From positions 1-21,085 of the IMG/VR virus record IMGVR_UViG_3300007038_000018: a stretch of 21,085 bases of DNA; one strand, given 5' to 3'. Made by a program: the position numbers and the translations under genes. Of the stretch, positions 1,102-21,085 are shown one piece after another. The stretch comes from a virus. The notes beneath the pieces are model-generated. The model was not told where the DNA came from. It searched no databases and saw only the letters and a list, made by a program, of their open reading frames with translations. Each line of letters opens with the position of its first letter. The stretch's first letter is position 1.

Positions 1102-2644
1102 GCTCGTCCGCGATGGCGAAGTGCAGCCCCAGCCGGGGCCTCAGGCGGCGTTCCTCAGCTGTGAGGCCGACGTGGTCTTCTACGGCGGAGCGGCCGGCGG
1201 CGGCAAGACGATCGCCCTGCTGATGGACCCGCTTCGGGGCATCCACAAGCCGGACTTTCGGGGGATTATCTTTCGGCGAGAGTCGACCCAGATCGACACC
1301 GGCGGCGGGCTCAAAGACGAGTCTGAGAAGCTGTACCCGCTGGTCGGCGGCCAGCTGGTCACCAGCCCGCACATCCAGTGGACCTTCCCGTCGGGCGCGC
1401 GCATCGACTTTCGGCACCTGAAGCTCGAGCGCAACGCCAAGGACTACCAGGGGGCCCAATACGACTTCATCGGCTTCGACGAGCTGACCCACTTTCTGGC
1501 CTCGCAGTTTCTGTACCTGGTCGGGCGTAACCGCTCGCGCGCCGAGGGGATTGATCCGTGGGTGCGGGCGACGATGAACCCGGAGCACAACTCGTGGGTC
1601 TACGACTGGGTCAAGCCGTATCTGGACGAGGATGGCTACGCCGATCCCGACAAGGCCGGCGGGGTGCGCCACTACTGGATGGGCGATGACGACCTGCCGG
1701 AGTGGGCCGACGCCGATGACGTCCGGGAGGGCCCCGAAGGTATGCAGATCGCCCCGAAGTCGTTTGCCTTCGTGCCTGCCGACATCTCCGACAACAAAGC
1801 CTTGCTGGAGCGCGATCCCGGCTATCTGGCCAACCTGAAGACCGGGCGGCGCGTCGAGCAGGAGCGGCTTTTAGGGCGGTCCGACAAGATCGGGGGCTGC
1901 TGGACGGCCAAGGATACCGACGGGCTCTTCCAGCATGTCACCCCCCGGATCATCGAAGCGGCGCCGCCGAATGTGCGGTGGGTGCGCTACTGGGACCTGG
2001 CCGACACCGACGAAGAGGACGCGGACAGCAAGACGGCGCAGACGGCCGGGGCGAGCCTTGCGGTGCGCTACCGGCAGTGGAGCGTGTGTCTGCGCGAGGA
2101 CTGCTATTGGTGGAAGGAGGGCCGGGCGAAGGGGTCGTGCCCTGTGTGCGATTTCGCGATCTGGTCGAAGCCGATGCCCATCCTGTACATCGACCACGTC
2201 TGCGCCAGGCGGCTTGAAGGGGGAGCAAAAAAGCGGTGGATTCGGCGGCACGCCAAGTCGGACACCACCGCCATCCCCCAGATATTTGAGCAGGAGGGGG
2301 GCGGGACGGGCAAGGAGGTGATCGGGGACTACAACCGCGACGTCTTGCCCGGCCACACAGTCAAGGGGGACAGCCCGACCGGCGACAAGGCGGATCGGGC
2401 GGGCACCTGGGTGGAGCTTGGCGAGCAGGGGCGGCTGTTTTTCGTGCAGGGCCCGTGGAACAGCGACCTCGAGGATGCGATGCACCGGTTTCCTGACAAG
2501 CCACGCGACCGTATCGACGCCATCTCCGGCGGGTTTGGCGTGGCCAAGAAGCTGGCCAGGCTGCCTGAGTCGGGCTCGTCGGGCACCGTCGTTAAATCCA
2601 CCGCTTCGCAAAAATCTACTGACATCGGTAAATACTTCGGATGA
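1094..2644 (+). CDS. terL: Terminase large subunit (packaging ATPase/nuclease)
   Basis: This 516-residue protein is the motor that pumps and cuts phage DNA. Walker A is GGAAGGGKT at residues 31-39. Walker B is in YDFIGFDE at 123-130, with D129 and the catalytic E130. The RNase H-like nuclease begins at VRYWDLADT (acidic D301) and ends near RDRIDAISGG (472-480), with the usual GDKADRAGTW and FPDKP motifs between. An insertion at about 330-355 carries C332, C337, C349 and C352, which looks like a zinc ribbon between early strands of the nuclease fold. The ATG at 1094 overlaps the small terminase stop; a start at 1070 would add eight residues without a better binding site. It overlaps the portal gene by 4 bases (ATGA). 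Confidence 0.95.
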   Translation: MSELVRDGEVQPQPGPQAAFLSCEADVVFYGGAAGGGKTIALLMDPLRGIHKPDFRGIIFRRESTQIDTGGGLKDESEKLYPLVGGQLVTSPHIQWTFPSGARIDFRHLKLERNAKDYQGAQYDFIGFDELTHFLASQFLYLVGRNRSRAEGIDPWVRATMNPEHNSWVYDWVKPYLDEDGYADPDKAGGVRHYWMGDDDLPEWADADDVREGPEGMQIAPKSFAFVPADISDNKALLERDPGYLANLKTGRRVEQERLLGRSDKIGGCWTAKDTDGLFQHVTPRIIEAAPPNVRWVRYWDLADTDEEDADSKTAQTAGASLAVRYRQWSVCLREDCYWWKEGRAKGSCPVCDFAIWSKPMPILYIDHVCARRLEGGAKKRWIRRHAKSDTTAIPQIFEQEGGGTGKEVIGDYNRDVLPGHTVKGDSPTGDKADRAGTWVELGEQGRLFFVQGPWNSDLEDAMHRFPDKPRDRIDAISGGFGVAKKLARLPESGSSGTVVKSTASQKSTDIGKYFG

Positions 2645-5172
2645 TCCACCGCATCAGACAACGCATTGCTCGTAAGGTCGCCCACAGCCTCAGCAAGCTG
2701 GACCGCCGGCTGAAGGCGTGGGCGGCCAAACACATCCGTGACGAGGCGTCGGGCGGGTCGGTCAGCGACCGGGAGGGGCTTTTGGCGCGCCACGGGATCG
2801 ACCTGCAGGCGAGCGCCGACGAGCTCGACCAGCAGTTCTCGGAGCGCGAGGAGGGCTGTCTGGTGCGGACTTACCCCGAGCGGGTTGTCGCCTCGGAGTC
2901 GGGCCGGCTGAACGTCGACCAGCAGTCGACCAGCGGGGTCGCCTTCCACAACGACCGACCAAACTACGAGGACCGCAACAAGACCTACCAGCCGGTCAAG
3001 GTCCGCGGGCGTGCGACACGGCGGGGCCACGGGCTGTACCATCAGATGTGGCTGACCAGCGCATCGTACCAGCGCGCATGGGGTACGCCCCTTCAGGGGC
3101 TGGTGACCGGGGAGTGGTCGGTCGACCCGCCCGACCTGCAGGACCCGACCCCCGAGCAGCTGGACGCAGCCGAGCGGCGGGCGTCCAAGCTTCAGCGCAA
3201 CCTTCTGCACAACATCGCGGGGGGCTGGAAGCAGTACGTCACCGAGTGGCTGTACGCGCTGGTGGCCGGCTTTGTCGTCCACGAGCCCGTCTATCACGGC
3301 CAAGGGCCCGACGCGGGGCTTCTGGAGAAGCTGTCGTTCATCTATCCGTCATCGGTCGATGGGTGGGTTCTCGACGAGGCCGAGCAGAACCTGCAGGCGG
3401 TCCGCTTTCGGTCCGCCCAGGACGGGGGTCTGTATGTCATCGAGGCGCGGGATCTGCAGATTTACAGCCACCTGCGGATGGGGCTGAACCTGGAAGGGGT
3501 GTCGACCCTGCGGAGTGTGACCGGCTGGATTCAGACCGTCCAGCTGATGCAGCAGCTCGAAAACTTGAGCAAGGAGCGGCTGGGGGTCCCGTGGATTACC
3601 GCCCAGCAAGACGGCGAGTCGATGGGCAACACGGAGGCCGACAAGACCCTTGAGTCGATCTTGCAGGATGCCCGCGCCGAGGAGTCGCCGGTCATCAAAC
3701 TGCCCAACGGGACGACCCTGCAGATGCACTCGGCGGCCGGAAACGAGCCGGACTTTTCGACGCCCAAAGAGTTTGCCATCAAGCAGATCAAGCAGGTGCT
3801 CAACGCCGAGGGGTCCCTGATTGCGGTCAACGACACCGGCGCCTACGCCGCCCGCGAGGAGGCCAGCAAAGACGCCCTGCAGATCTCTGGGTATCTGGCC
3901 GGTCTGCTGTGCGACAACCTCAACGGGGCCGACAACCGCCCGTGCACCGGCGTGCTCAAGTCGACCGAAAAGACCTACTGGGGCGGGCCCATCCAGCCGG
4001 GGCGATACTGTCAGCTGTCGTGGAGCCCGGGCGATGAGCGAAACCCCAAGCGGGCGAGCCGGATCAACGAAGGGCTCAAAAGCGGGGCGCTGACCCCCGG
4101 GCCGGCCGTTGAAGGGGCGTACCGCGAAGAGGTCGGCTTGCCGCTCAGTCAGGACCAGGAGCGGGCGCTGGCCGACGGGCCCGGCGATGACGATTTGGTC
4201 GAGGGGGGCGGCAAGGACGCCGAGGGGGCAGACGACGACCAGCCTCTCGCCAAGCTGGCAGCCTCCGAGCAGGCAGACGCCTTCGAGCTGGTCGCCTCCG
4301 AGTCGCGGCGGCCGGGCGAGCGGGGAATTACCACCGAGCAGATGGTCCAGGCGGGGGCGGTACACCTGCGGGCGGCGGACGTCGACCCCGAGAAGCTGGC
4401 CGACAAGCAAGACCGGCTGGAGGCCCAGCTGGCCCGCCGTCTCGAGCAGGTGGCGACGGCCCACAAGAAGGCGTACCGCGACCGGGTCCGCTCGATGGCT
4501 GAGCAGGCCGACGGGCCGGCGGCGGCGAAGGGTGCGGCCGACCGGGCCAAGCAGGAGGTTCGCAACACGTACCTGCCCCGCTATCAGCGAGAGGCGAGGA
4601 AGGTACTCGAAAAGGCCAAAGACCAGGGCGGCCAGGATCTGATCCGCAGCTACGGCAAGACGATCGGCCAGCAGACGGCCATCCCGACCAGCCGGGACAT
4701 CGCCACGATCATCGACGATGAGGCCGACCAGATTGGCCGGGAGGCCTTCCAACGCCAGCAGGGGCGGTTTGACGAGCGGACCAACGCCATGCTGTCGGGG
4801 GACACCGCCAAGAAGCTCGAGAAGCTCGCCGGGTCGACGTGGGCGGCGATGGCCGGAAAGACCGTCTCCAAGCCGTACAACCTGGGGCGCCAGGCGGTCG
4901 TCGAAAAGACCGCCCAGAAGACCCGGCAGATGAACCCGAGCCGCCCCGTCGAATTGATCGCCGAGCGCTCCTCGGTGCTCGACGGCAAGACGTGCGGGCC
5001 GTGTGAGGATCTAGACGGTGAGCGCGCGATGCTTGGGTCGGACCGCTACGGAGTCATCAGCCCGCCCAACCAGTGCGACGGGGGCGGGCGGTGCCGGTGC
5101 ATCTTTTCATTCATCCTGCCTGACGAGCGCGGGTTTGACGCGGCCGTCGAGGAGATCAAGGCGGCTTCATGA
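2641..5172 (+). CDS. Portal protein fused to a MuF-like minor head domain
   Basis: This 843-residue protein would form the dodecameric portal through which DNA enters and leaves the head. Residues about 95-500 resemble the DUF935 portal family of Mu gp29, including a WSVDPPD strand, a helical segment, then YALVAGFVVHEPVYHG and a long central helix at 295-312. Residues 505-540 are an acidic linker. Residues 560-770 are strongly helical. The last 70 residues carry the MuF/SPP1 gp7 signature: TCGPCEDLDG with C785 and C788, then PPNQC (C812) and RCRC (C818, C820). Portal and MuF proteins are usually separate neighbouring genes; here one open frame covers both, about 300 residues longer than a typical portal. 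Start and stop both show 4-base ATGA overlaps. Confidence 0.85.
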   Translation: MIHRIRQRIARKVAHSLSKLDRRLKAWAAKHIRDEASGGSVSDREGLLARHGIDLQASADELDQQFSEREEGCLVRTYPERVVASESGRLNVDQQSTSGVAFHNDRPNYEDRNKTYQPVKVRGRATRRGHGLYHQMWLTSASYQRAWGTPLQGLVTGEWSVDPPDLQDPTPEQLDAAERRASKLQRNLLHNIAGGWKQYVTEWLYALVAGFVVHEPVYHGQGPDAGLLEKLSFIYPSSVDGWVLDEAEQNLQAVRFRSAQDGGLYVIEARDLQIYSHLRMGLNLEGVSTLRSVTGWIQTVQLMQQLENLSKERLGVPWITAQQDGESMGNTEADKTLESILQDARAEESPVIKLPNGTTLQMHSAAGNEPDFSTPKEFAIKQIKQVLNAEGSLIAVNDTGAYAAREEASKDALQISGYLAGLLCDNLNGADNRPCTGVLKSTEKTYWGGPIQPGRYCQLSWSPGDERNPKRASRINEGLKSGALTPGPAVEGAYREEVGLPLSQDQERALADGPGDDDLVEGGGKDAEGADDDQPLAKLAASEQADAFELVASESRRPGERGITTEQMVQAGAVHLRAADVDPEKLADKQDRLEAQLARRLEQVATAHKKAYRDRVRSMAEQADGPAAAKGAADRAKQEVRNTYLPRYQREARKVLEKAKDQGGQDLIRSYGKTIGQQTAIPTSRDIATIIDDEADQIGREAFQRQQGRFDERTNAMLSGDTAKKLEKLAGSTWAAMAGKTVSKPYNLGRQAVVEKTAQKTRQMNPSRPVELIAERSSVLDGKTCGPCEDLDGERAMLGSDRYGVISPPNQCDGGGRCRCIFSFILPDERGFDAAVEEIKAAS

Positions 5173-5435
5173 CTGACACGGAGCCGACATCCCAGATGGC
5201 CGCCGTCCGGCGGACCCACTGGATCTTGCAGAGGCTGCTGGCGGGGGCGTGTGTGTCGGTGCCAGACGTGTGCGACGAGTTTGGGTGCTCGGCCCGCCAG
5301 GCGCGCCGGTATCTGTACCTTCTCAAGGAGATGTATGCCCTCGAGTCGTTTCGGGCCGAGGGCGGGGGGCGCAAGTACTACACCGTCGACCCGGACCACC
5401 CGATTGACGTGGCCCCCTCGGTGCGGGGCGGATAG
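5169..5435 (+). CDS. Small winged-helix DNA-binding protein in the head operon
   Basis: The 88-residue product has the layout of a single winged helix-turn-helix, as in DeoR/HTH_11-type regulators. A first helix (VRRTHWILQRLLAG) is followed by VSVPDVCDEFGCSARQARRY, where DEFGC-SARQARRYLYLL is the helix-turn-helix. A wing strand pair follows (ALESFRAEGGGRKYYTV). No effector-binding domain is present. The start overlaps the portal stop by 4 bases, so the gene is co-translated with packaging genes. A DNA-binding protein here is unusual. The 96-base gap just downstream holds a perfect 8+8 inverted repeat that could be its operator. A structural role, such as an adaptor, cannot be excluded, since winged-helix folds also occur in virion proteins. 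Confidence 0.75.
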   Translation: MTDTEPTSQMAAVRRTHWILQRLLAGACVSVPDVCDEFGCSARQARRYLYLLKEMYALESFRAEGGGRKYYTVDPDHPIDVAPSVRGG

Positions 5436-5476
5436 GTGGCGGGCGTGTGGGGTCGGGGCTGGTGTCGACCCGGAGC

Positions 5477-5531
5477 GCGGCGCTGTCTACGGTCACAGTT
5501 GAAGCAATGTCTGTGACCCGGAGAGCGCCGC
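5477..5531 (+). promoter_or_regulatory. Nested inverted repeat enclosing the ribosome binding site of the protease/scaffold gene
   Basis: Two nested perfect 8-base stems are visible. The outer pair is GCGGCGCT (5477-5484) with AGCGCCGC (5524-5531). The inner pair is GGTCACAG (5491-5498) with CTGTGACC (5511-5518), with a 12-base loop. The GGAG ribosome binding site (5520-5523) sits in the internal loop between the stems, and the ATG at 5532 follows the outer stem directly. A 9-base direct repeat GACCCGGAG (5467-5475 and 5515-5523) overlaps it. As RNA this could sequester the start site; as DNA the inner dyad could be an operator for the adjacent winged-helix protein. Function is inferred from geometry. 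Confidence 0.6.
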
Positions 5532-6929
5532 ATGTTGTTTGAGTCCTACAAAGACCTGCCCGACGAGATTCGCCAGCGGGCAGACGTCCAGGCCATCCAC
5601 CGGTCGTGGCGCCCCAAGATCGTCGAGCAGGCCAACCGGCTGCACGAGGACGGGGCCGACCGGAGCGAGGCGGTCGACCAGGCCATCCAGGCCGTCGACC
5701 AGAAGGCCGACAAGGCGACTGAGTGGGTCAAGGTCCACACCACCGGACCGATCGAGCAAGACGGACAGGTTGTCGGGGTGACGCAGGGGTATTTTGAGCG
5801 GACTGTCGCCGAGTTTGACCGCTACCAGTCCGACCTCCAGGAGGCGGGGCTGGAGTGGTATCCGGCGGTGACCCGCCCGGTCTTTGGCCCCCACGTCGAC
5901 TCCGGGCGCCGCGACGGGGATGTCATCGCCCTGAAGGCGGCCCCCGACGAGCTGTGGGCCCAGATTGTCTGGAACCCCCACACCTGGACGGAGCGCAAGC
6001 GGGGGCACCTGCGCCAGCTGTCGGTCAACATCGTCCCTGAGCACAACGATCCGCAGCTGATGACCACCTACGGGCCTCACCTTCGTGAGGTCAGCCCGAC
6101 CAATTTTGGCAAGGACAAGTACGCGGGGATTGAGGCGGCGGTCACCAAGCTGACGGCCGCTGAGTGCGCCGACATCGGCCTCGAGGTCGAGGGGGCCGAC
6201 GAGCCTGACGAGGGGTCAGCCGGCGACGAGCCCGACGGCAAGCAGACGCACGACGAGCCCGACGATACGACTTTGACTGCTGCCCAAGACCAAGAGGACA
6301 CCGTGAAGCTGAGCAAGTGGCTGAATACGAAACTCAAGGCGCTGGACAATCTCTCCGAGGGCGGGTCGATGCCCTCCAAGGCCGACGTCGTCGAGCAGCT
6401 GGCCGACCAGGCCGGGGTCGATGTCGCGCAGGTCGAGGCGCTGGCGTCGGGCAAGATTGCCCACCCGACCGACGCGATGGTCGAGGCGCTGAGCGAGATG
6501 TTCGGCGTCGGGGTCGACAAGATCCGGGCGGGCAACCTGTCGACGGGTGAGCCCGACGAGTCCGGCGACGACCCCGAGGAGGGCGAGGGCATGGAGGGGG
6601 CCGGCGACGGGGAGGGGGTGGGCGAGGACAAGGCGCCCGGCATCGCCGCTTCGGAGTCCGGCCCCGACCACAGCGACCAGATCATGGCCAAGCTCGACGA
6701 GCTCGAGCAGCGGGTCGCCCGCCAGGAGCGGGTCGCCCAGAAGAACACCGCCCAGCAGTCCAACCCCGGCGAGCAGCCGCTGGTCGCCGCCGAGGGCGAG
6801 CCGTCCGGCGACGGGCCCGACTGGTCGGATATGTCCGACAAGGAGGCGCTCGACCGGGTCAAAGACGAGACCGAACTGGTCGGCCACGAGGCGGCCAACG
6901 AGGCGCGCCGCCGACAGGGCAAAGCCTGA
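5532..6929 (+). CDS. Prohead protease fused to Cro-like HTH and scaffold region
   Basis: This 465-residue protein probably cleaves the head scaffold during maturation and also supplies scaffold. Residues 65-205 resemble the Mu gpI-like prohead protease family: a VTQGYFERTVAEFDRY helix, H121 in FGPHVDSG, a DVIALKAAPDELWAQIVW strand pair, and S164 in RQLSVN, proposed as catalytic His and Ser. After an acidic linker (220-255), residues 281-333 form a Cro/XRE-like helix-turn-helix (DVVEQLADQAGVDVAQVEAL then GKIAHPTDAMVEALSEMFGV). Then come another acidic segment, a coiled coil (380-405) and a charged C-terminus, as in scaffolds. A GTG at 6303 (V258) with AGAGGA upstream could start a separate scaffold chain. 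The gene's own ribosome binding site lies inside a hairpin. Confidence 0.75.
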   Translation: MLFESYKDLPDEIRQRADVQAIHRSWRPKIVEQANRLHEDGADRSEAVDQAIQAVDQKADKATEWVKVHTTGPIEQDGQVVGVTQGYFERTVAEFDRYQSDLQEAGLEWYPAVTRPVFGPHVDSGRRDGDVIALKAAPDELWAQIVWNPHTWTERKRGHLRQLSVNIVPEHNDPQLMTTYGPHLREVSPTNFGKDKYAGIEAAVTKLTAAECADIGLEVEGADEPDEGSAGDEPDGKQTHDEPDDTTLTAAQDQEDTVKLSKWLNTKLKALDNLSEGGSMPSKADVVEQLADQAGVDVAQVEALASGKIAHPTDAMVEALSEMFGVGVDKIRAGNLSTGEPDESGDDPEEGEGMEGAGDGEGVGEDKAPGIAASESGPDHSDQIMAKLDELEQRVARQERVAQKNTAQQSNPGEQPLVAAEGEPSGDGPDWSDMSDKEALDRVKDETELVGHEAANEARRRQGKA

Positions 6930-6987
6930 CGCAGACGGGACGCAGACGGAGACGAAAAAAGTCGACTGACATGCAAGCGAGGAGACG

Positions 6988-7734
6988 ATGAACGCACAGC
7001 CGATTCCGCAGGGGCTCAAGATTCAGGGGCGACAGTCCGAAGAGGACATGCCCGACGCGTCGATGCTGGTCAAAGAGGGGACCGGCAACAGCGAGTTCAC
7101 CCCGACGGTGGACCCGGCCGACGAGGTGCTCGGCTACACGAATACGGGCCTCAAGCAGGGTCAGCACGGGGCGATCGTCAGCGGTCTGGGCAGCGTGACG
7201 CTGCTGATGGCCGACGGGGCGGTCGCCAAGGGTGACCGGCTGGCCCCCAGCGGGGCCGGCGGGGCCAAGGCCGGCTACGTCAAGGCCAGCGAGGACGTCA
7301 CCGAGACGTTCGTCGGCTACGCCCTGCAGGCGTGCTCGGACGGCGAGGAGTTTCTGGCCGTCTACCTGGGGCGGGCCGACGAGCCCGAGCGCATCCTGTC
7401 GGCCACGCCGGGGGCGGAGGGCGACGCTGTCGCCGACGCCTTCGACATCGGGCTGGACCAGAATCTGGCGTCGACCGACGAGTGGACGGTCGAGGCGTTC
7501 AGCGACGACGGGACCCGGGCGACGGACATCGAGTTTTCGCTGCAGGATGGCAACGGCTCGATGGTGCTGGGGACCAACACCAACGGGGTCGCCATCTTCC
7601 AGCTGCACACCGACGGCACCGAGACCCTGCGGGCCCTGGACGGGTCCGGGGCGCTGGCCGCCGACGTCCACCTGGTCTTTCGGCCGGTCGACGGAGACGG
7701 GCGCACACTCAGAGAGACGATCGCCTTCGCCTGA
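6988..7734 (+). CDS. Capsid decoration/cement protein with extra C-terminal beta domain
   Basis: The 248-residue product precedes the capsid gene, the usual place for head decoration proteins. Residues 50-130 resemble the DUF2190-like cement family: Gly-rich beta strands with VAKGDRLAPSGAGGAKAGYV, then ETFVGYALQACSDGEEFLAV. Residues 135-248 form a second beta-rich region (DEWTVEAFSDDGTRATDIEF and VHLVFRPVDGDG) that could be an Ig-like fold exposed on the head; that fold is inferred. The start follows GAGGAGACG, nearly the same binding site as the capsid gene, which suits two proteins made in large amounts. The assignment rests on position and strand pattern. Confidence 0.6.
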   Translation: MNAQPIPQGLKIQGRQSEEDMPDASMLVKEGTGNSEFTPTVDPADEVLGYTNTGLKQGQHGAIVSGLGSVTLLMADGAVAKGDRLAPSGAGGAKAGYVKASEDVTETFVGYALQACSDGEEFLAVYLGRADEPERILSATPGAEGDAVADAFDIGLDQNLASTDEWTVEAFSDDGTRATDIEFSLQDGNGSMVLGTNTNGVAIFQLHTDGTETLRALDGSGALAADVHLVFRPVDGDGRTLRETIAFA

Positions 7735-7797
7735 TTGGGGCCTGACGGCCACGGGACAGGCTGACGTTACACGACCGATGACTGCTGAGGAGACAGT

Positions 7798-8742
7798 ATG
7801 ACGCTGCGATTCAAAGACGACATGAACGACCTGGGTCAGGTGTACGTGGGGGAGCTGCTCTCCCAGCAGGCACCGATTCGCGACTCGGTGGCCGTCGACC
7901 TGTTCGGCCCCCGAATGATCGACACCCCCGACGGGCCGATCCCGTGGATTCCGCCCGAATTTCGGACGGCCAATTCCGGCGACCAGTACGTCGGTAAGAT
8001 CGGGCTCAGTGAGCCGGCGCCGTCTATCCAGATCGACCTGGACCACGTCGACATCGAGACGCAGGGGAAGTTCTCCCGCAAGGCGATCATCAGTCGCCAC
8101 GCCGACGAGGTGCTCGACGCGATCGACACCGCGATGGGCCTGACGGGCTACCTGGGGTCGATCGTCAAGGGGTTCAACAACGTGGCCATCGAGCAGGCGG
8201 TCTCGACGATCCTGAAGGACCCGCTCAAAAACGCCACGCAGTCGACCCAGGCGGCCTGGACGTCGGCCAGCTCGGCCGAGCCGTTCGACGACATCGAAAA
8301 CTGCATGGACATCGTCACCTCGGCCGGCGAGACCCCCGACACCATGATCATGGGGCTGGACTACGCCCGGCTGCTGTCGCGGACCGGGGCGATCAAAGGG
8401 GCGGCCGGCCGGTCGATCGATACGACCGGGGATGCCGTCTCCCACGAGGCGGTCCGCGAGATGCTGGTCCGCCGCTTCGGCTTCGACAACATCCTGATCG
8501 ACAACAGCGTCTACCAGAACGACGCCAACAAGGAGTCGACCCCCGACATCAACCGCGTGTACGACGGGACGCTGTGGATCGGCGCCTCCGAGCACATGAT
8601 TGTCCGGGACAAGGAGGATATGCGCGAGTCGGATGCCGGCTACGACTCGGACTCCCAGAACTACTGGACCCTCCAGCACCAGCTGGTCGACTTCTACCGC
8701 GGCATCAACGACGCCGGGGTCATTCTGACGAATGTGACCTGA
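7798..8742 (+). CDS. Major capsid protein
   Basis: This 314-residue protein would be the main HK97-fold shell subunit. Its size fits the family (about 300 residues). An N-terminal helical segment (residues 1-30) leads to PIPWIPPEFRTANSGDQY, where the E-loop region would lie. Later come NCMDIVTSAGETPDTMIMGL (P-domain helix and strand), EAVREMLVRRFGFDNILIDN, and a C-terminal stretch ending GVILTNVT. The pattern 'predefined position, then residues LLVRRFG-like, then trailing Tyr-rich segment' matches Mu T-like capsid proteins. It follows the protease and decoration genes in the standard order and has a strong binding site (GAGGAG, spacer 5). A 7-base hairpin lies just after the stop. Confidence 0.85.
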   Translation: MTLRFKDDMNDLGQVYVGELLSQQAPIRDSVAVDLFGPRMIDTPDGPIPWIPPEFRTANSGDQYVGKIGLSEPAPSIQIDLDHVDIETQGKFSRKAIISRHADEVLDAIDTAMGLTGYLGSIVKGFNNVAIEQAVSTILKDPLKNATQSTQAAWTSASSAEPFDDIENCMDIVTSAGETPDTMIMGLDYARLLSRTGAIKGAAGRSIDTTGDAVSHEAVREMLVRRFGFDNILIDNSVYQNDANKESTPDINRVYDGTLWIGASEHMIVRDKEDMRESDAGYDSDSQNYWTLQHQLVDFYRGINDAGVILTNVT

Positions 8743-8751
8743 TAGGCCGGC

Positions 8752-8773
8752 GGGCCCGGCGGATGTCGGGCCC
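8752..8773 (+). terminator. GC-rich hairpin after the capsid gene
   Basis: A perfect 7-base stem, GGGCCCG (8752-8758) with CGGGCCC (8767-8773), has an 8-base loop, starting 10 bases after the capsid stop. No T-run follows, so it is not a classic intrinsic terminator. It could partly attenuate transcription or protect the capsid mRNA 3' end and so raise capsid yield relative to the connector genes. Confidence 0.4.
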
Positions 8774-8818
8774 TGACGGTGCTGGCTTGGCGCTCGCGCG
8801 ACACGACGGAGACGACGC

Positions 8819-13009: not shown

Positions 13010-15678
13010 TGGCCGTCACATTCGACATTGAAGCGCTGAACGAGGCGTCGGATACGCTGGAGGATATCCAGCGTGACATGGACGACCTGCGTGATTCTGC
13101 CAATGATGTCGGCGACGAGACGTCCGACTCGATGGACGATGCGTCTGACTCGATGGATCGGGCGGGCGGGTCGGCTGAGACGCTCGGCGACAAGATGCGC
13201 CGAGTCGGCAAAGGGGTTGCCAATGTGGGGGCGGAGATGGCGGCTGCGGGGGCGGCGGCTGCGGTTGGTATCGGGGTCAAAAGCGTCCAGGCGGCCGGCC
13301 GGTTTGAGGATGCAATCGCGTCGGCGGCGGCCAAGACGTCCAACGCCCAGTTGTCGATGGAGAAGTTCAACGCCGCCGCCAAGCAGGCGGGGCAAGTGTC
13401 GACCAAAAGCGCCACCGATGCGGCCGGTAGCCTGCAGTTTCTGGCCCAGGCGGGCCTGTCGGCCCAGCAGTCTGTCGAGGCGCTTCCGGGGGTGCTCGAG
13501 TTGTCGGCGGCCGGCAGCCTGGATCTTGCGCAGGCATCCGACATTGCCACCAACGTCCTGTCCGGGATGCGCCTGGAGGTGGCAGACCTTGCCCGGGTCA
13601 ACGACGTGCTGGTGGCCGCCTCCTCGGCGGCAAACACAGGAGTCGGGGAGCTTGGGCAGGCCTTCAGTTTTGTGGCACCCAAGGCGCGAGCCGTCGGGAT
13701 GTCCGTCGAGCAGACGGCAAGCATCCTCGGGACACTCGCCAATGCCGGCATCAAGTCGACCCGGGCGGGGCGCGGGCTCCGGTCGGCGCTGGCGGCCTTG
13801 CAGAACCCGACCGACAAACTTCAGGCGGTCCTCGACAAAACAGGGATCTCGCTTCGGAAGGCCGACGGGGATATGCGGGCCTTCTCGTCGATCATCCAGG
13901 ACTTCTCAGACGCCGGGGCGCTCAAGCAGCTCAGCGGCTCGATGAGTAGCGTGGCCGGGTCGGTCGTTGAGGTGGTCGGCCCGGCGATCTCAGAGGTCGG
14001 CGAGCTGCGCAAAGGGTTTCAGGAGGCAGGGGGCGAGGCCCAGAAGCAGGCAGAACTGATGCGCTCGTCGATGGGCGCGCAGCTCGAGATCCTGAAGGGG
14101 TCGTTTGAGACGCTGATGGTGACGATGGGGGAGCGGTTCAAGCCCGTCGTCATGTCCGTGTCCAGTGAGTTGACGAACCTGTCGAACGAATCAGCCAAGG
14201 CGGCGGATGCGCAAAAAGGCGTATCAAAGGAGATGCGGGAGACGGCTCAGGTATCCGGTGAGCTGACCGCAGTGCTCGGCGAGCTGTTGCCCCTGCTGGG
14301 AGCGGCGGCGACAGACGTGGCTGGGGGGTGGTCGTTTACCGGTAAGCTTGCCTCGACGGGCACAAAAGCGATCGGCACGATGGTCGGGCTTCGGGACAGC
14401 TCCGAGGAGGCGAGCCGGGGGCTGCGCCGATACAAGGAGGCGACAGAAGGGGCTGCGGGCGTCGGGGAGATGCTCAGCGCAGTGTCTGCTGGGCAAAACG
14501 GCCAGCTCGACTTGCTTGGCAGCACGACCGACGAGGTCTACGAGGCGAACAAGCGGCTTGCCGAGGCGACACGTCAGTACGGACTCGAGTCCGATGAGGC
14601 CAAAGAGGCAGCCAAAGAACTGCAGGAGGCGATGGGGCAGCAAGCGGGCGGGGCGGCGACCGCATCGACGGCCTTCGAGACGCTGGGGCAAAAGGCCCGC
14701 GATGCGGCGGTGTCGATGTTCGGGGCGAAAACGCTGACTAAGGCCAACGTCAAGTGGGAATTGCTCAAGGGCCATGTCAACAACGCCAAAGACGCCCTGC
14801 AGACGTACATGGAGAAGCAGGTCGCCCAGCAGGAAAAGGCCAACGACCGGCTGAACCTCGAAAAAGACATCACCAAAGAGAAGCAAAAGCAGGCCGACCT
14901 GTCCGGGTTTGTCGGCGACTTCAAGACGACGGGCGGGATCACGGAAGGGGAGGCCAAGCGGCGCGGGGCGTCGGGCTTCGGGCTGGCCAACTCCGGCGGG
15001 GGCGAGACAGCCAGCCTCTCCGAGATTGCCGGGCCGGCCGGGCGCACCGACGGGGAGGAGGCGGCGCGCCGGTCACGCTTTGCGCGGGCGCGCCGGGCAG
15101 CCGAGCAGGCCAAGGCGGGCAAGCAGGCCAAGCTGCAAAAGGAGCTGACCGAAGACGTCGCCCAGCAGCAAAGCGCCGTCAAGCAAGAGATCCAAAATAC
15201 GACCACCGCGGCATCGGGGCTGGTGTCGACGCTGGCTCAGCTTCCCGCCGAAGGGTCGGCCGCCGCCGAGTCGATGAAGCGGGTCGCCTCGGCGATTCAG
15301 GGCGCCCAGGCTGTCGCCCAGGGGATCAACACCGCCCTGTCGGCCGCCTCCGGGTTCGGCATTGCGGGGGGCGTGCTGTCGGCGCTGTCTGCCGTCGCCG
15401 GAGTCGTCGCGCCGCTTTTTGGGGGCGACGCCGAGGAGGCGGCCAATGCGGCCGGGGCGAAGGTCGACGAGACGATCACCAAGGCGTCGGCCCGCAACCG
15501 GCGCCGCTCAAAGCAGGATCTCACCGAGGCGTTTACCGCCGCGCTGGAGGCCTCTCAGTCGGGGCCGGCCGGAGGAAGCACCAACGTCTTCAGCGATAAT
15601 GTCTTCTTGCAGGAGTCCGACCGGGTCGCCGCCCAGATCAACCAGGCGACCCGGCGCGGCTCCGAGACGAGGATGTGA
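13009..15678 (+). CDS. Tail tape measure protein
   Basis: This 889-residue protein sets tail length and is injected with DNA. Residues 1-75 are acidic and heptad-like (TLEDIQRDMDDLRDSANDVG). Residues about 85-370 match the TP901-type tape measure core: RFEDAIASAAAKTSNAQLSM, a LEVADLARVNDVLVAASSAA segment, VGMSVEQTASILGTLANAGI and SSMGAQLEILKGSFETLMVT. Residues 590-760 are coiled-coil with many Gln and Lys. Residues 765-806 are hydrophobic and Ala/Gly-rich, a likely membrane-insertion segment. The start overlaps the chaperone extension stop. By the ruler relation, the length predicts a tail of about 130 nm. Confidence 0.92.
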   Translation: MAVTFDIEALNEASDTLEDIQRDMDDLRDSANDVGDETSDSMDDASDSMDRAGGSAETLGDKMRRVGKGVANVGAEMAAAGAAAAVGIGVKSVQAAGRFEDAIASAAAKTSNAQLSMEKFNAAAKQAGQVSTKSATDAAGSLQFLAQAGLSAQQSVEALPGVLELSAAGSLDLAQASDIATNVLSGMRLEVADLARVNDVLVAASSAANTGVGELGQAFSFVAPKARAVGMSVEQTASILGTLANAGIKSTRAGRGLRSALAALQNPTDKLQAVLDKTGISLRKADGDMRAFSSIIQDFSDAGALKQLSGSMSSVAGSVVEVVGPAISEVGELRKGFQEAGGEAQKQAELMRSSMGAQLEILKGSFETLMVTMGERFKPVVMSVSSELTNLSNESAKAADAQKGVSKEMRETAQVSGELTAVLGELLPLLGAAATDVAGGWSFTGKLASTGTKAIGTMVGLRDSSEEASRGLRRYKEATEGAAGVGEMLSAVSAGQNGQLDLLGSTTDEVYEANKRLAEATRQYGLESDEAKEAAKELQEAMGQQAGGAATASTAFETLGQKARDAAVSMFGAKTLTKANVKWELLKGHVNNAKDALQTYMEKQVAQQEKANDRLNLEKDITKEKQKQADLSGFVGDFKTTGGITEGEAKRRGASGFGLANSGGGETASLSEIAGPAGRTDGEEAARRSRFARARRAAEQAKAGKQAKLQKELTEDVAQQQSAVKQEIQNTTTAASGLVSTLAQLPAEGSAAAESMKRVASAIQGAQAVAQGINTALSAASGFGIAGGVLSALSAVAGVVAPLFGGDAEEAANAAGAKVDETITKASARNRRRSKQDLTEAFTAALEASQSGPAGGSTNVFSDNVFLQESDRVAAQINQATRRGSETRM

Positions 15679-16604
15679 TGGCGTTGGGGATCGACAGGTG
15701 GGTCTATGAGGTCGAGATCACCTCGAGCAACAACACGATCGTTTTTGTGGAGCGGGACGCGGGGGGCACGTTGACGGCGACGGTGACCGTCGACCCGGGC
15801 ACCTACCACTGTGTGCTGGATACCGGACTGGTGCCGGCACAGATTGACGGGCTGTACAACGAGATCGAGCAGGCCGTCGGGGCCGGCGCGGAGCTGCCGG
15901 GGGCAGGATCGTACAGCCTGGAACGCATCGACCCGACAGCCTCGGCCAACACCTTCGGCAAAAAGTCCGGCCTCCGGCTGGCCTACAGTGACACTGATCT
16001 CGACGAGTTCGGGTGGGTCTTCTCGGATGCAAATTTTACTTTCCCGCCCGAACTGCTGGGCTACCTGGACGGCCGGTCGTCCGATGCGACGACGACCGCC
16101 CAGCAGCTAGACGCCCCCCACACCTGCTGGGGGACGTGGACTTCCCCGCGGGTCGCCAAGAAGGTCGGCTGGCCGCGCTTCGAGCAGCGGCATACCGGGG
16201 TGTCCTTCAGTCAGTTCGTCAACGTCCGCTGGGGTTCACAAAAGCTGCGCCGCCCCTTCAAGTACCACAATCTTCCGGCCGTCCACATCCACCGAGGGCG
16301 GGCTTCTCGTGATGCGTACGCCGAGGTTGGCCAGCTGGCCGATGACGATGACAACAACGCCTTCGAGGATGTCTGGCGGGCGATGAGTGACGGAGGTGAG
16401 GCGCTGGTCTTCCACGACCACGGCGACACCGTCGACGACTTCGCCAACCAGGATGAGTGGGAGTTGGTGCGCTTTCCGGACGAGGTGCTCGCCGGAGATA
16501 TCGACTTTCGGGACGTACCGACCGAGCAGAGCCGATCGGCGGAGTTTTACACCCTCGACTTTGAGGTCGAGGTCGACACTACTCTCAGCCCCTACACCTA
16601 CTGA
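15678..16604 (+). CDS. Tail tip protein, possible distal tail component
   Basis: The product is 308 residues from the ATG at 15678, which has GAGGA at 15669-15673; a GTG at 15675 would add one residue with a poor spacing. It is beta-rich and Trp/Tyr-rich: IDRWVYEVEITSSNNTIVFV, then YHCVLDTGLVPAQIDGLYNE, FGWVFSDANFTFPPELLGYL, CWGTWTSPRVAKKVGWPRFE and a closing strand AEFYTLDFEVEVD. Immediately after the tape measure gene is where distal tail proteins lie in siphophages. No family is recognised with confidence. Its stop overlaps the following hub gene by one base. Confidence 0.45.
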   Translation: MALGIDRWVYEVEITSSNNTIVFVERDAGGTLTATVTVDPGTYHCVLDTGLVPAQIDGLYNEIEQAVGAGAELPGAGSYSLERIDPTASANTFGKKSGLRLAYSDTDLDEFGWVFSDANFTFPPELLGYLDGRSSDATTTAQQLDAPHTCWGTWTSPRVAKKVGWPRFEQRHTGVSFSQFVNVRWGSQKLRRPFKYHNLPAVHIHRGRASRDAYAEVGQLADDDDNNAFEDVWRAMSDGGEALVFHDHGDTVDDFANQDEWELVRFPDEVLAGDIDFRDVPTEQSRSAEFYTLDFEVEVDTTLSPYTY

Positions 16605-19367: not shown

Positions 19368-19559
19368 ATGAGTTTCGACGGCACAGATTTCCAGCGCCTC
19401 CACCTCGATGAGACCCACGGAGAGGACCGGCCGTACGATGCCGGATTTCTGCGCCAGACGCGCAGCAACGTCGTCTTCTTGAACCGCGAGCGTGGCCGGG
19501 CAGGGGGTCAAGACGATCGAGCTAGACATCTGGTATCGCGTCTCCGATGCCGTCTCTGA
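19368..19559 (+). CDS. Short frame that is probably the 5' part of the next tail gene
   Basis: The ATG follows AGGAG overlapping the lipoprotein stop. The first about 44 residues (MSFDGTDFQRLHLDETHGED, GFLRQTRSNVVFLNRERG) have high GC third positions. The last about 18 residues are Arg-rich with many A/T third positions and look non-coding, while the +1 frame over the same bases looks coding. This suggests the coding frame switches near a run of five G at 19503-19507. It could be a frame break from an indel, a +1 frameshift, or simply a short protein overlapping the next gene. Confidence 0.55.
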   Translation: MSFDGTDFQRLHLDETHGEDRPYDAGFLRQTRSNVVFLNRERGRAGGQDDRARHLVSRLRCRL

Positions 19560-21027
19560 TCCTGATGCGGTCAGCGGGACCGGCGAGGGAGTATCGGGCA
19601 CCAACCAATCTGACACTGCCGTGGATGTCCGGCTGGCGACCCCGGGCGCCCTTCAGGCGGGCGGCGAGCCAGCGGTCACCACGCTGACCCCCGAGCGGGA
19701 CGCCAGCGGCGAGGAGTTGTGGCAGCGGGCGACGATCACGGCGACGATTGCCCCGGACTATGCAGCGTCGATTGATCACTTCGCCCAGATGCTGGCCGCC
19801 CTCGAGATTCAGTCCACTCCCATCAATACGTCGGTGACCTCCGCCGGCGTGACTGCCAGCTCGTTCGCCAGCCGGCTGGATACCGACGACGGCACCTTCT
19901 TTCCCGCTTCCCCGAACGATTACGACCCGCTGGGCCCGTCCAATCCGTGGACGATGTATGTCGCCCCATCGGGGCATGCGCCGGCCAACTTGATGGCCTA
20001 CGGCGGAGTCTCACAGGGGTCTGACAGCGACAGCGCCGAGGTGGACTCGTACGACTGGACGGATGTCAACAGCGGAGAGACGGTCGACCTAAAGCCGCTG
20101 TCGTACCTGCAGCTTCGCGCCGGTGCGCTTCGGACGACCTATTACGATCTCGGCAGCCAGTACAGCGGGGTCGACATCTCCGAGCCGGATACGTACGCCG
20201 ATCGGGACCCGTCGGGTAGTGTGCCGCGAAGACTTGCCCAGAATCTCAACCAGGCCCGCCGCCGCCCCGAGCCTCTGTGTGTCGGCACGCAGGCGAGCCC
20301 GTTTGGCGATGACCCCAACCTCGATGGCAACGGCTCGTGGGGCGAGGGGGCGGCCAACAACTTCGCGATGGCCCACGGCTACCACGTCGCCGCCCGTCAG
20401 TCGGCCTACATCGGCGGGCACACCGACAGCTACACGACCCTGTACGACGAGCGCGGGGTCGCCCCGCGGCATGTCACCTACGCGAAATTTGAGGCGATGG
20501 GGCTGGCTTTTCTGTCGTCGTTTCTCAACGACCCCGATGCCGGCTGGAAGGAGTCGGACGCCGGGATTGTGGCCGACGTCACATTTCGGGCGACCGTCTA
20601 CGAGATCGCTGGATCCGGCCCCTCACAGGTCGCCCAGGAGACCGCCACGGTCACCGACACGCCCGTCTATTTGACCAACGGCGCCTCCAAGGCCCAGCTA
20701 CTTCAGCAGCTACACTTCCTGTTTTTGCCGTCGGGGGGCACCGGAAACGACGAGCCGAACCTGGTCTTTAAGGAGGGGCATCTGGACACCTCGACGGCGG
20801 ACGTCAGCGACCTGCCCAGCGGGTCGCCCATCGACGACTACATGACCCCGGACCTGTGGTGCGACATCTCCGGGCGCGACCCTGACCTTCCGCTCCGCTT
20901 TGAGCTGGAGTGCAAGATCGATGCGATGACTCCGGCGTACGTGGTCAACGACCTTGAGCCGGTCTTCTCGAGCAACCTCAACGGCGTCGTCTCCACCGCC
21001 TTCTCTGTCTGGGGGTTCGACCTGTGA
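19492..21027 (+). CDS. Tail tip/minor tail protein
   Basis: The frame encodes 511 residues from GTG 19492. There is no good ribosome binding site before this GTG, and the frame has a stop at 19480-19482, so the true N-terminus may come from the 19368 frame. If one G is skipped in the run at 19503-19507 the combined product would be 552 residues. The protein is beta-rich with Ser, Thr and Asp: VKTIELDIWYRVSDAVSD, ATITATIAPDYAASIDHFAQ, YDWTDVNSGETVDLKPLSYL, VTFRATVYEIAGSGPSQVAQ, and a terminal beta segment ending SVWGFDL. No family recognised. Position after the hub suggests a tail tip or receptor-binding role. Its stop forms a GTGA overlap with the next gene. Confidence 0.6.
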   Translation: MAGQGVKTIELDIWYRVSDAVSDPDAVSGTGEGVSGTNQSDTAVDVRLATPGALQAGGEPAVTTLTPERDASGEELWQRATITATIAPDYAASIDHFAQMLAALEIQSTPINTSVTSAGVTASSFASRLDTDDGTFFPASPNDYDPLGPSNPWTMYVAPSGHAPANLMAYGGVSQGSDSDSAEVDSYDWTDVNSGETVDLKPLSYLQLRAGALRTTYYDLGSQYSGVDISEPDTYADRDPSGSVPRRLAQNLNQARRRPEPLCVGTQASPFGDDPNLDGNGSWGEGAANNFAMAHGYHVAARQSAYIGGHTDSYTTLYDERGVAPRHVTYAKFEAMGLAFLSSFLNDPDAGWKESDAGIVADVTFRATVYEIAGSGPSQVAQETATVTDTPVYLTNGASKAQLLQQLHFLFLPSGGTGNDEPNLVFKEGHLDTSTADVSDLPSGSPIDDYMTPDLWCDISGRDPDLPLRFELECKIDAMTPAYVVNDLEPVFSSNLNGVVSTAFSVWGFDL

Positions 21028-21085
21028 GATTTCTACCCGACGACCCGCCCATCCCCGTCAAAAGCGAATTTTTCGACGGGGGCGA
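21024..21085 (+). CDS. Start of a further tail-region gene (truncated by the window)
   Basis: A GTG at 21024 overlaps the preceding stop by 4 bases (GTGA) and opens a frame through the end of the window, beginning MRFLPDDPPIPVKSEFFDGG. Only 20 residues are visible. The overlap style matches the other operon junctions, so this is probably a real gene; its product cannot be assigned. Confidence 0.55.
   Translation, partial: MRFLPDDPPIPVKSEFFDGG

Follow-up and report, generated by a model that had tools for sequence, protein, structure and literature searches.

We analysed a 21,085-base virus record, IMGVR_UViG_3300007038_000018 (the whole of it hereafter the window), in which a head operon can be recognised. 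A terminase gene (1070-2644; phrog_979, E 3e-111) is followed by a portal/MuF-like ORF (2641-5172), assigned by its position and recognisable residues, whose C-terminus weakly matches phrog_595. Further downstream lie ORF 5532 (5532-6929, + strand), encoding 465 aa, a scaffold/decoration-like ORF (6988-7734; phrog_673, E 9e-5) and the gene for the major head protein (7798-8742; phrog_1005, E 4.5e-8), after which come the tail genes, including that for the tape measure. The head operon also encodes, after portal/MuF and ahead of the following head gene, a small protein of 88 aa (5169-5435, + strand), predicted to be a winged helix-turn-helix protein on the basis of weak HTH profile matches and a structure model. 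The model is a winged helix with a pLDDT of 78, and in Foldseek searches it weakly matched winged-helix repressors of the ArsR/SmtB type (best E 8e-3).

ORF 5532 begins with the ATG at 5532-5534, which is the first ATG, GTG or TTG past an in-frame stop at 5514. Family and profile searches with this ORF gave no significant match. However, a role as a putative head maturation protease/scaffold would fit its position between portal/MuF and the head protein, motif-like residues such as FGPHVDS and LRQLSVNI, and the acidic character and coiled-coil-like segments of its C-terminal part. AlphaFold modelled the first 225 residues with low confidence (46), with N-terminal helices predicted with fair confidence. 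The eight main proteins of the window are acidic (D+E 14.9% versus K+R 10.1%, with K at 4.2%), which hints at a salt-adapted host.

The 88-aa ORF, whose stop codon lies at 5433-5435, is separated from ORF 5532 by a gap of 96 nt (5436-5531). An earlier note on this DNA had singled out this gap as the largest in its surroundings, and it proves to be the largest from 550 to beyond 12254. The gap holds two perfect nested 8-base inverted repeats on the + strand, also described in that note and confirmed here by direct reading of the sequence. The outer stem consists of GCGGCGCT (5477-5484) and AGCGCCGC (5524-5531), and the inner stem of GGTCACAG (5491-5498) and CTGTGACC (5511-5518), the latter pair enclosing a 12-nt apical loop, TTGAAGCAATGT (5499-5510), with an out-of-frame AUG at 5507. 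A Shine-Dalgarno-like GGAG (5520-5523) lies 8 nt 5′ of the ATG. The outer stem does abut the start codon, as had been claimed: its 3′ arm ends at 5531 and the ATG itself is just outside the stem. Upstream of these repeats there is a second, weaker predicted hairpin with GGGGUCG-type arms (5450-5471, + strand), which is not significant (z -1.5). Moreover, an exact 17-base repeat, TCGGGGCTGGTGTCGAC, is common to the leader gap (5453-5469) and the tape measure gene (15214-15230), and two further exact repeats of 17-18 bases occur in the window.

Folding of the RNA from 5440 to 5560, the check that had been proposed, forms exactly both nested stems (z -2.5), and a 91-nt version of the region gives a z-score of -2.3. 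A single dominant hairpin is predicted, comprising the outer stem (5477-5484/5524-5531), a middle stem of three pairs (5486-5488/5520-5522) and the inner stem (5491-5498/5511-5518) with its 12-nt loop. The middle stem corrects one detail of the earlier note, which had placed GGAG in an open internal loop; the prediction instead pairs GGA with UCU at 5486-5488 (one pair being G-U), and bulges of 1-2 nt remain. The wider claim that the ribosome binding site is trapped is supported by the prediction, since the strong predicted hairpin hides the Shine-Dalgarno of ORF 5532. The further proposals of the note, a switch that would delay this gene relative to portal and capsid and a gap kept for a purpose, are hypotheses. 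The minimum free energy of the hairpin is -35.4 kcal/mol, and 5471-5540 ranks third by z-score among 2103 segments of 70 nt (z -5.2, against -4.3 when the segment starts one base earlier, with about one unit of sampling noise at 60 shuffles). RNA of the + strand folds more stably than that of the - strand (-35.4 to -36 versus -31.3 kcal/mol), partly through the G-U pair. The other top-scoring segments, at 2671, 12501 and 15601, are all inside genes, and thus this genome of 66% GC yields strong stems without regulatory need. An Rfam covariance-model search of the window returned no match at gathering score. An intrinsic terminator at the hairpin was rejected, as none appears there in the pattern-scan list and the tail of the hairpin is the start of a gene.

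Perfect nested repeats of this kind are not in themselves rare. A nested 8+8 pair was present in 12 of 200 Markov-1 surrogates of the window (mean 0.105), and therefore its existence is only mildly unusual; the real window has two, the second (16053-16106) lying within coding sequence. That such a pair should lie between genes and stop precisely at a start codon is far less probable by chance, a judgement made post hoc with 18 starts in 21 kb. It is the placement of the hairpin that is unusual.

Around the 5532 start, the region from -15 to +13 takes 25.2 kcal/mol to open, the highest value among the 18 starts in the window. This exceeds the cost at 108 of 109 starts from 21 GC-rich viral contigs, and none of the 41 among them that bear a Shine-Dalgarno reaches 25.2 kcal/mol, the comparison being approximate in that these starts were picked by a crude ORF rule (the first ATG of long ORFs). 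The Shine-Dalgarno region of ORF 5532 has a mean unpaired probability of 0.19. It is thus paired in a stable predicted helix, as is the Shine-Dalgarno and/or the start codon in RBS-sequestering structures; the start codon here is outside the stem and 71% unpaired. Several other starts in the window are preceded by SD-like GAGGAG or GGAG motifs. Therefore the host probably uses such motifs, and hiding the one that belongs to ORF 5532 should matter.

Our best explanation, which we hold tentatively, is that the hairpin sequesters the RBS in the head-operon mRNA, in the manner known from T4 e, soc and 49. The repeats, the predicted fold and the high opening cost are results of computation; formation in vivo, lowered translation and the manner of opening are inferred. 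On long read-through transcripts the hairpin would hide the Shine-Dalgarno of ORF 5532 and allow little direct ribosome entry, and translation of the ORF would then depend on opening of the stem. Most simply, transcripts beginning within the 5′ half of the hairpin, or cut there by a nuclease, would provide the opening; ribosomes crossing the stem might do so too. Because a stem this strong would nearly silence direct initiation, some such opening step must exist if ORF 5532 is well expressed. A promoter scan of 5000-7100 for a candidate opener, covering sigma-70 types, found none. Certain points count against sequestration. Taken literally, -35 kcal/mol would leave almost no initiation, an unexpected state for a head-assembly gene if nothing opens the stem. 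Moreover, the comparable folds at 2671, 12501 and 15601 are within coding regions of this same genome, and the start codon, predicted to be largely unpaired, lies beyond the stem. Should the hairpin control ORF 5532, it would illustrate how a head-assembly gene inside a structural operon is regulated through its RNA; for now, it is best described as a strong, well-placed predicted RNA structure of a familiar type. A more specific proposal, that this RNA element times or doses synthesis of the head protease/scaffold and is opened through cleavage or with the help of a phage-made factor, for instance the neighbouring winged-helix protein, seems to us improbable. Were it true, the timing of head maturation would be a translational decision.

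In T4 e, soc, 49 and I-TevI, an RNA helix hides the Shine-Dalgarno and/or the start codon (PMC3014915). The present hairpin is like these in that, by prediction, the Shine-Dalgarno of a phage gene is inside a helix; it differs in the gene concerned, here a putative head protease/scaffold, and in being a computational prediction. Translational coupling by RNA unfolding (PMC12548453) likewise involves an operon in which the RBS of a downstream gene is covered by an inhibitory structure, with the upstream ORF translated into or through the hairpin. Here, however, the upstream ORF ends at 5435, before the hairpin and 96 nt ahead of the ATG, a distance that is also long by the standards of ordinary stop-start coupling. 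For genes VII/IX, shifting the stop to a position far ahead of the hairpin (+89 nt) eliminated coupling (PMC12548453). Coupling to the upstream gene is disfavoured, since its stop precedes the hairpin and the short ORFs through the hairpin are without coding signal.

These short ORFs might nevertheless act themselves, with ribosomes on a 26-codon (5436-5516) or 31-codon (5447-5542) ORF, or on a minigene from the loop AUG at 5507, opening the stem for ORF 5532. Both frames reach into or across the stems, with the longer one stopping just past the ATG, and coupling by unfolding is documented (PMC12548453). However, they score -0.61 and -0.19 per codon, where the 1st percentile of true 31-codon stretches is 0.21, and neither has a clear SD, and we regard this explanation as very improbable. 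A coding function in the gap 5436-5531 was rejected on the same codon scores. RNase III processing hairpins occur in phage operons, for example in T7 and in the lambda N leader, and the hairpin resembles them as a long irregular stem between the cistrons of a phage operon. A hairpin for mRNA processing or stability (an RNase III-type site or a 5′ stabiliser), dividing the upstream cistrons from the segment 5532-8742, is the main rival explanation, though an unlikely one: approximately 19 base pairs with small internal loops are topped by the 12-nt loop and occupy the operon's first true gap, and a second strong stem (8740-8800; -34.6 kcal/mol) directly follows the putative major capsid gene. 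The gaps in between, 6930-6987 and 7735-7797, fold weakly, and thus two hairpins bracket the three head genes. Yet the stem at 8743 is not significant against shuffles (z -1.8), and here, unlike in the known processing hairpins, the 3′ arm reaches the start codon; ending exactly at the ATG is unneeded for a processing site. Under such a scheme, a cut in the stem might expose the Shine-Dalgarno as well. The gap after the head protein gene (8743-8818) is 76% GC.

It is also conceivable, if unlikely, that the structure is a chance product of GC-rich intergenic sequence and hardly affects expression in the cell. The surrogate counts, the second nested pair of the window in coding DNA, the similar z-scores attained by coding regions and the post hoc inspection of the feature are all in keeping with this, whereas its situation in the largest gap of the head module, flush with a start codon, and an opening cost that is extreme relative to other starts are not. 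Because a palindrome serves RNA and DNA alike, the inner repeat GGTCACAG-N12-CTGTGACC could instead be a DNA operator, a candidate site for the adjacent 88-aa winged-helix protein by which transcription into the head genes would be controlled. The palindrome is perfect, its half-site centres are 20 bp apart, the half-site GGTCACAG is found nowhere else in the window, and the neighbouring small protein is modelled as a winged helix resembling ArsR/SmtB repressors. We consider an operator distinctly unlikely, however, as the Foldseek matches are weak, the site has no second copy in the window, the sigma-70-type scan of 5000-7100 yielded no promoter-like site, and the outer 8-bp repeat and the middle pairing would be superfluous.

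Lastly, we searched for relatives of the locus. None that reach the hairpin were found in viral_contigs, genome_contigs, or phages and plasmids by tblastn; six protein queries (ORF 5532, major capsid protein, portal/MuF, terminase, winged helix and tail protein) were used for viral_contigs and two for genome_contigs. Terminase relatives were found at 30-40%, with head genes lacking detectable similarity. In the nearest of these (L067), there is no comparable gap, the end of the preceding ORF (4564) being overlapped by a protease-like ORF at 4561, and this protease-like ORF gave no meaningful alignment with ORF 5532. The inner palindrome with loops of 8-16 nt matched 62 contigs, none of which (0/62) carried a relative of any window protein, and the exact 28-mer matched no contig. 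The only close record, L082 (IMGVR_UViG_3300006982_000112), begins at window position 6616 and is 99.97% identical over 12,877 bases. Beyond these the match breaks off sharply where one ORF starts, or close to it (window 19492-21027 versus 12878-14507 in L082), with similarity of up to ~70% at the protein level (tblastx) and lower in places. The divergence resembles the exchange of a module or a tail gene undergoing diversification, and the two records are 99% identical again across the last 107 bases of the window (20979-21085).
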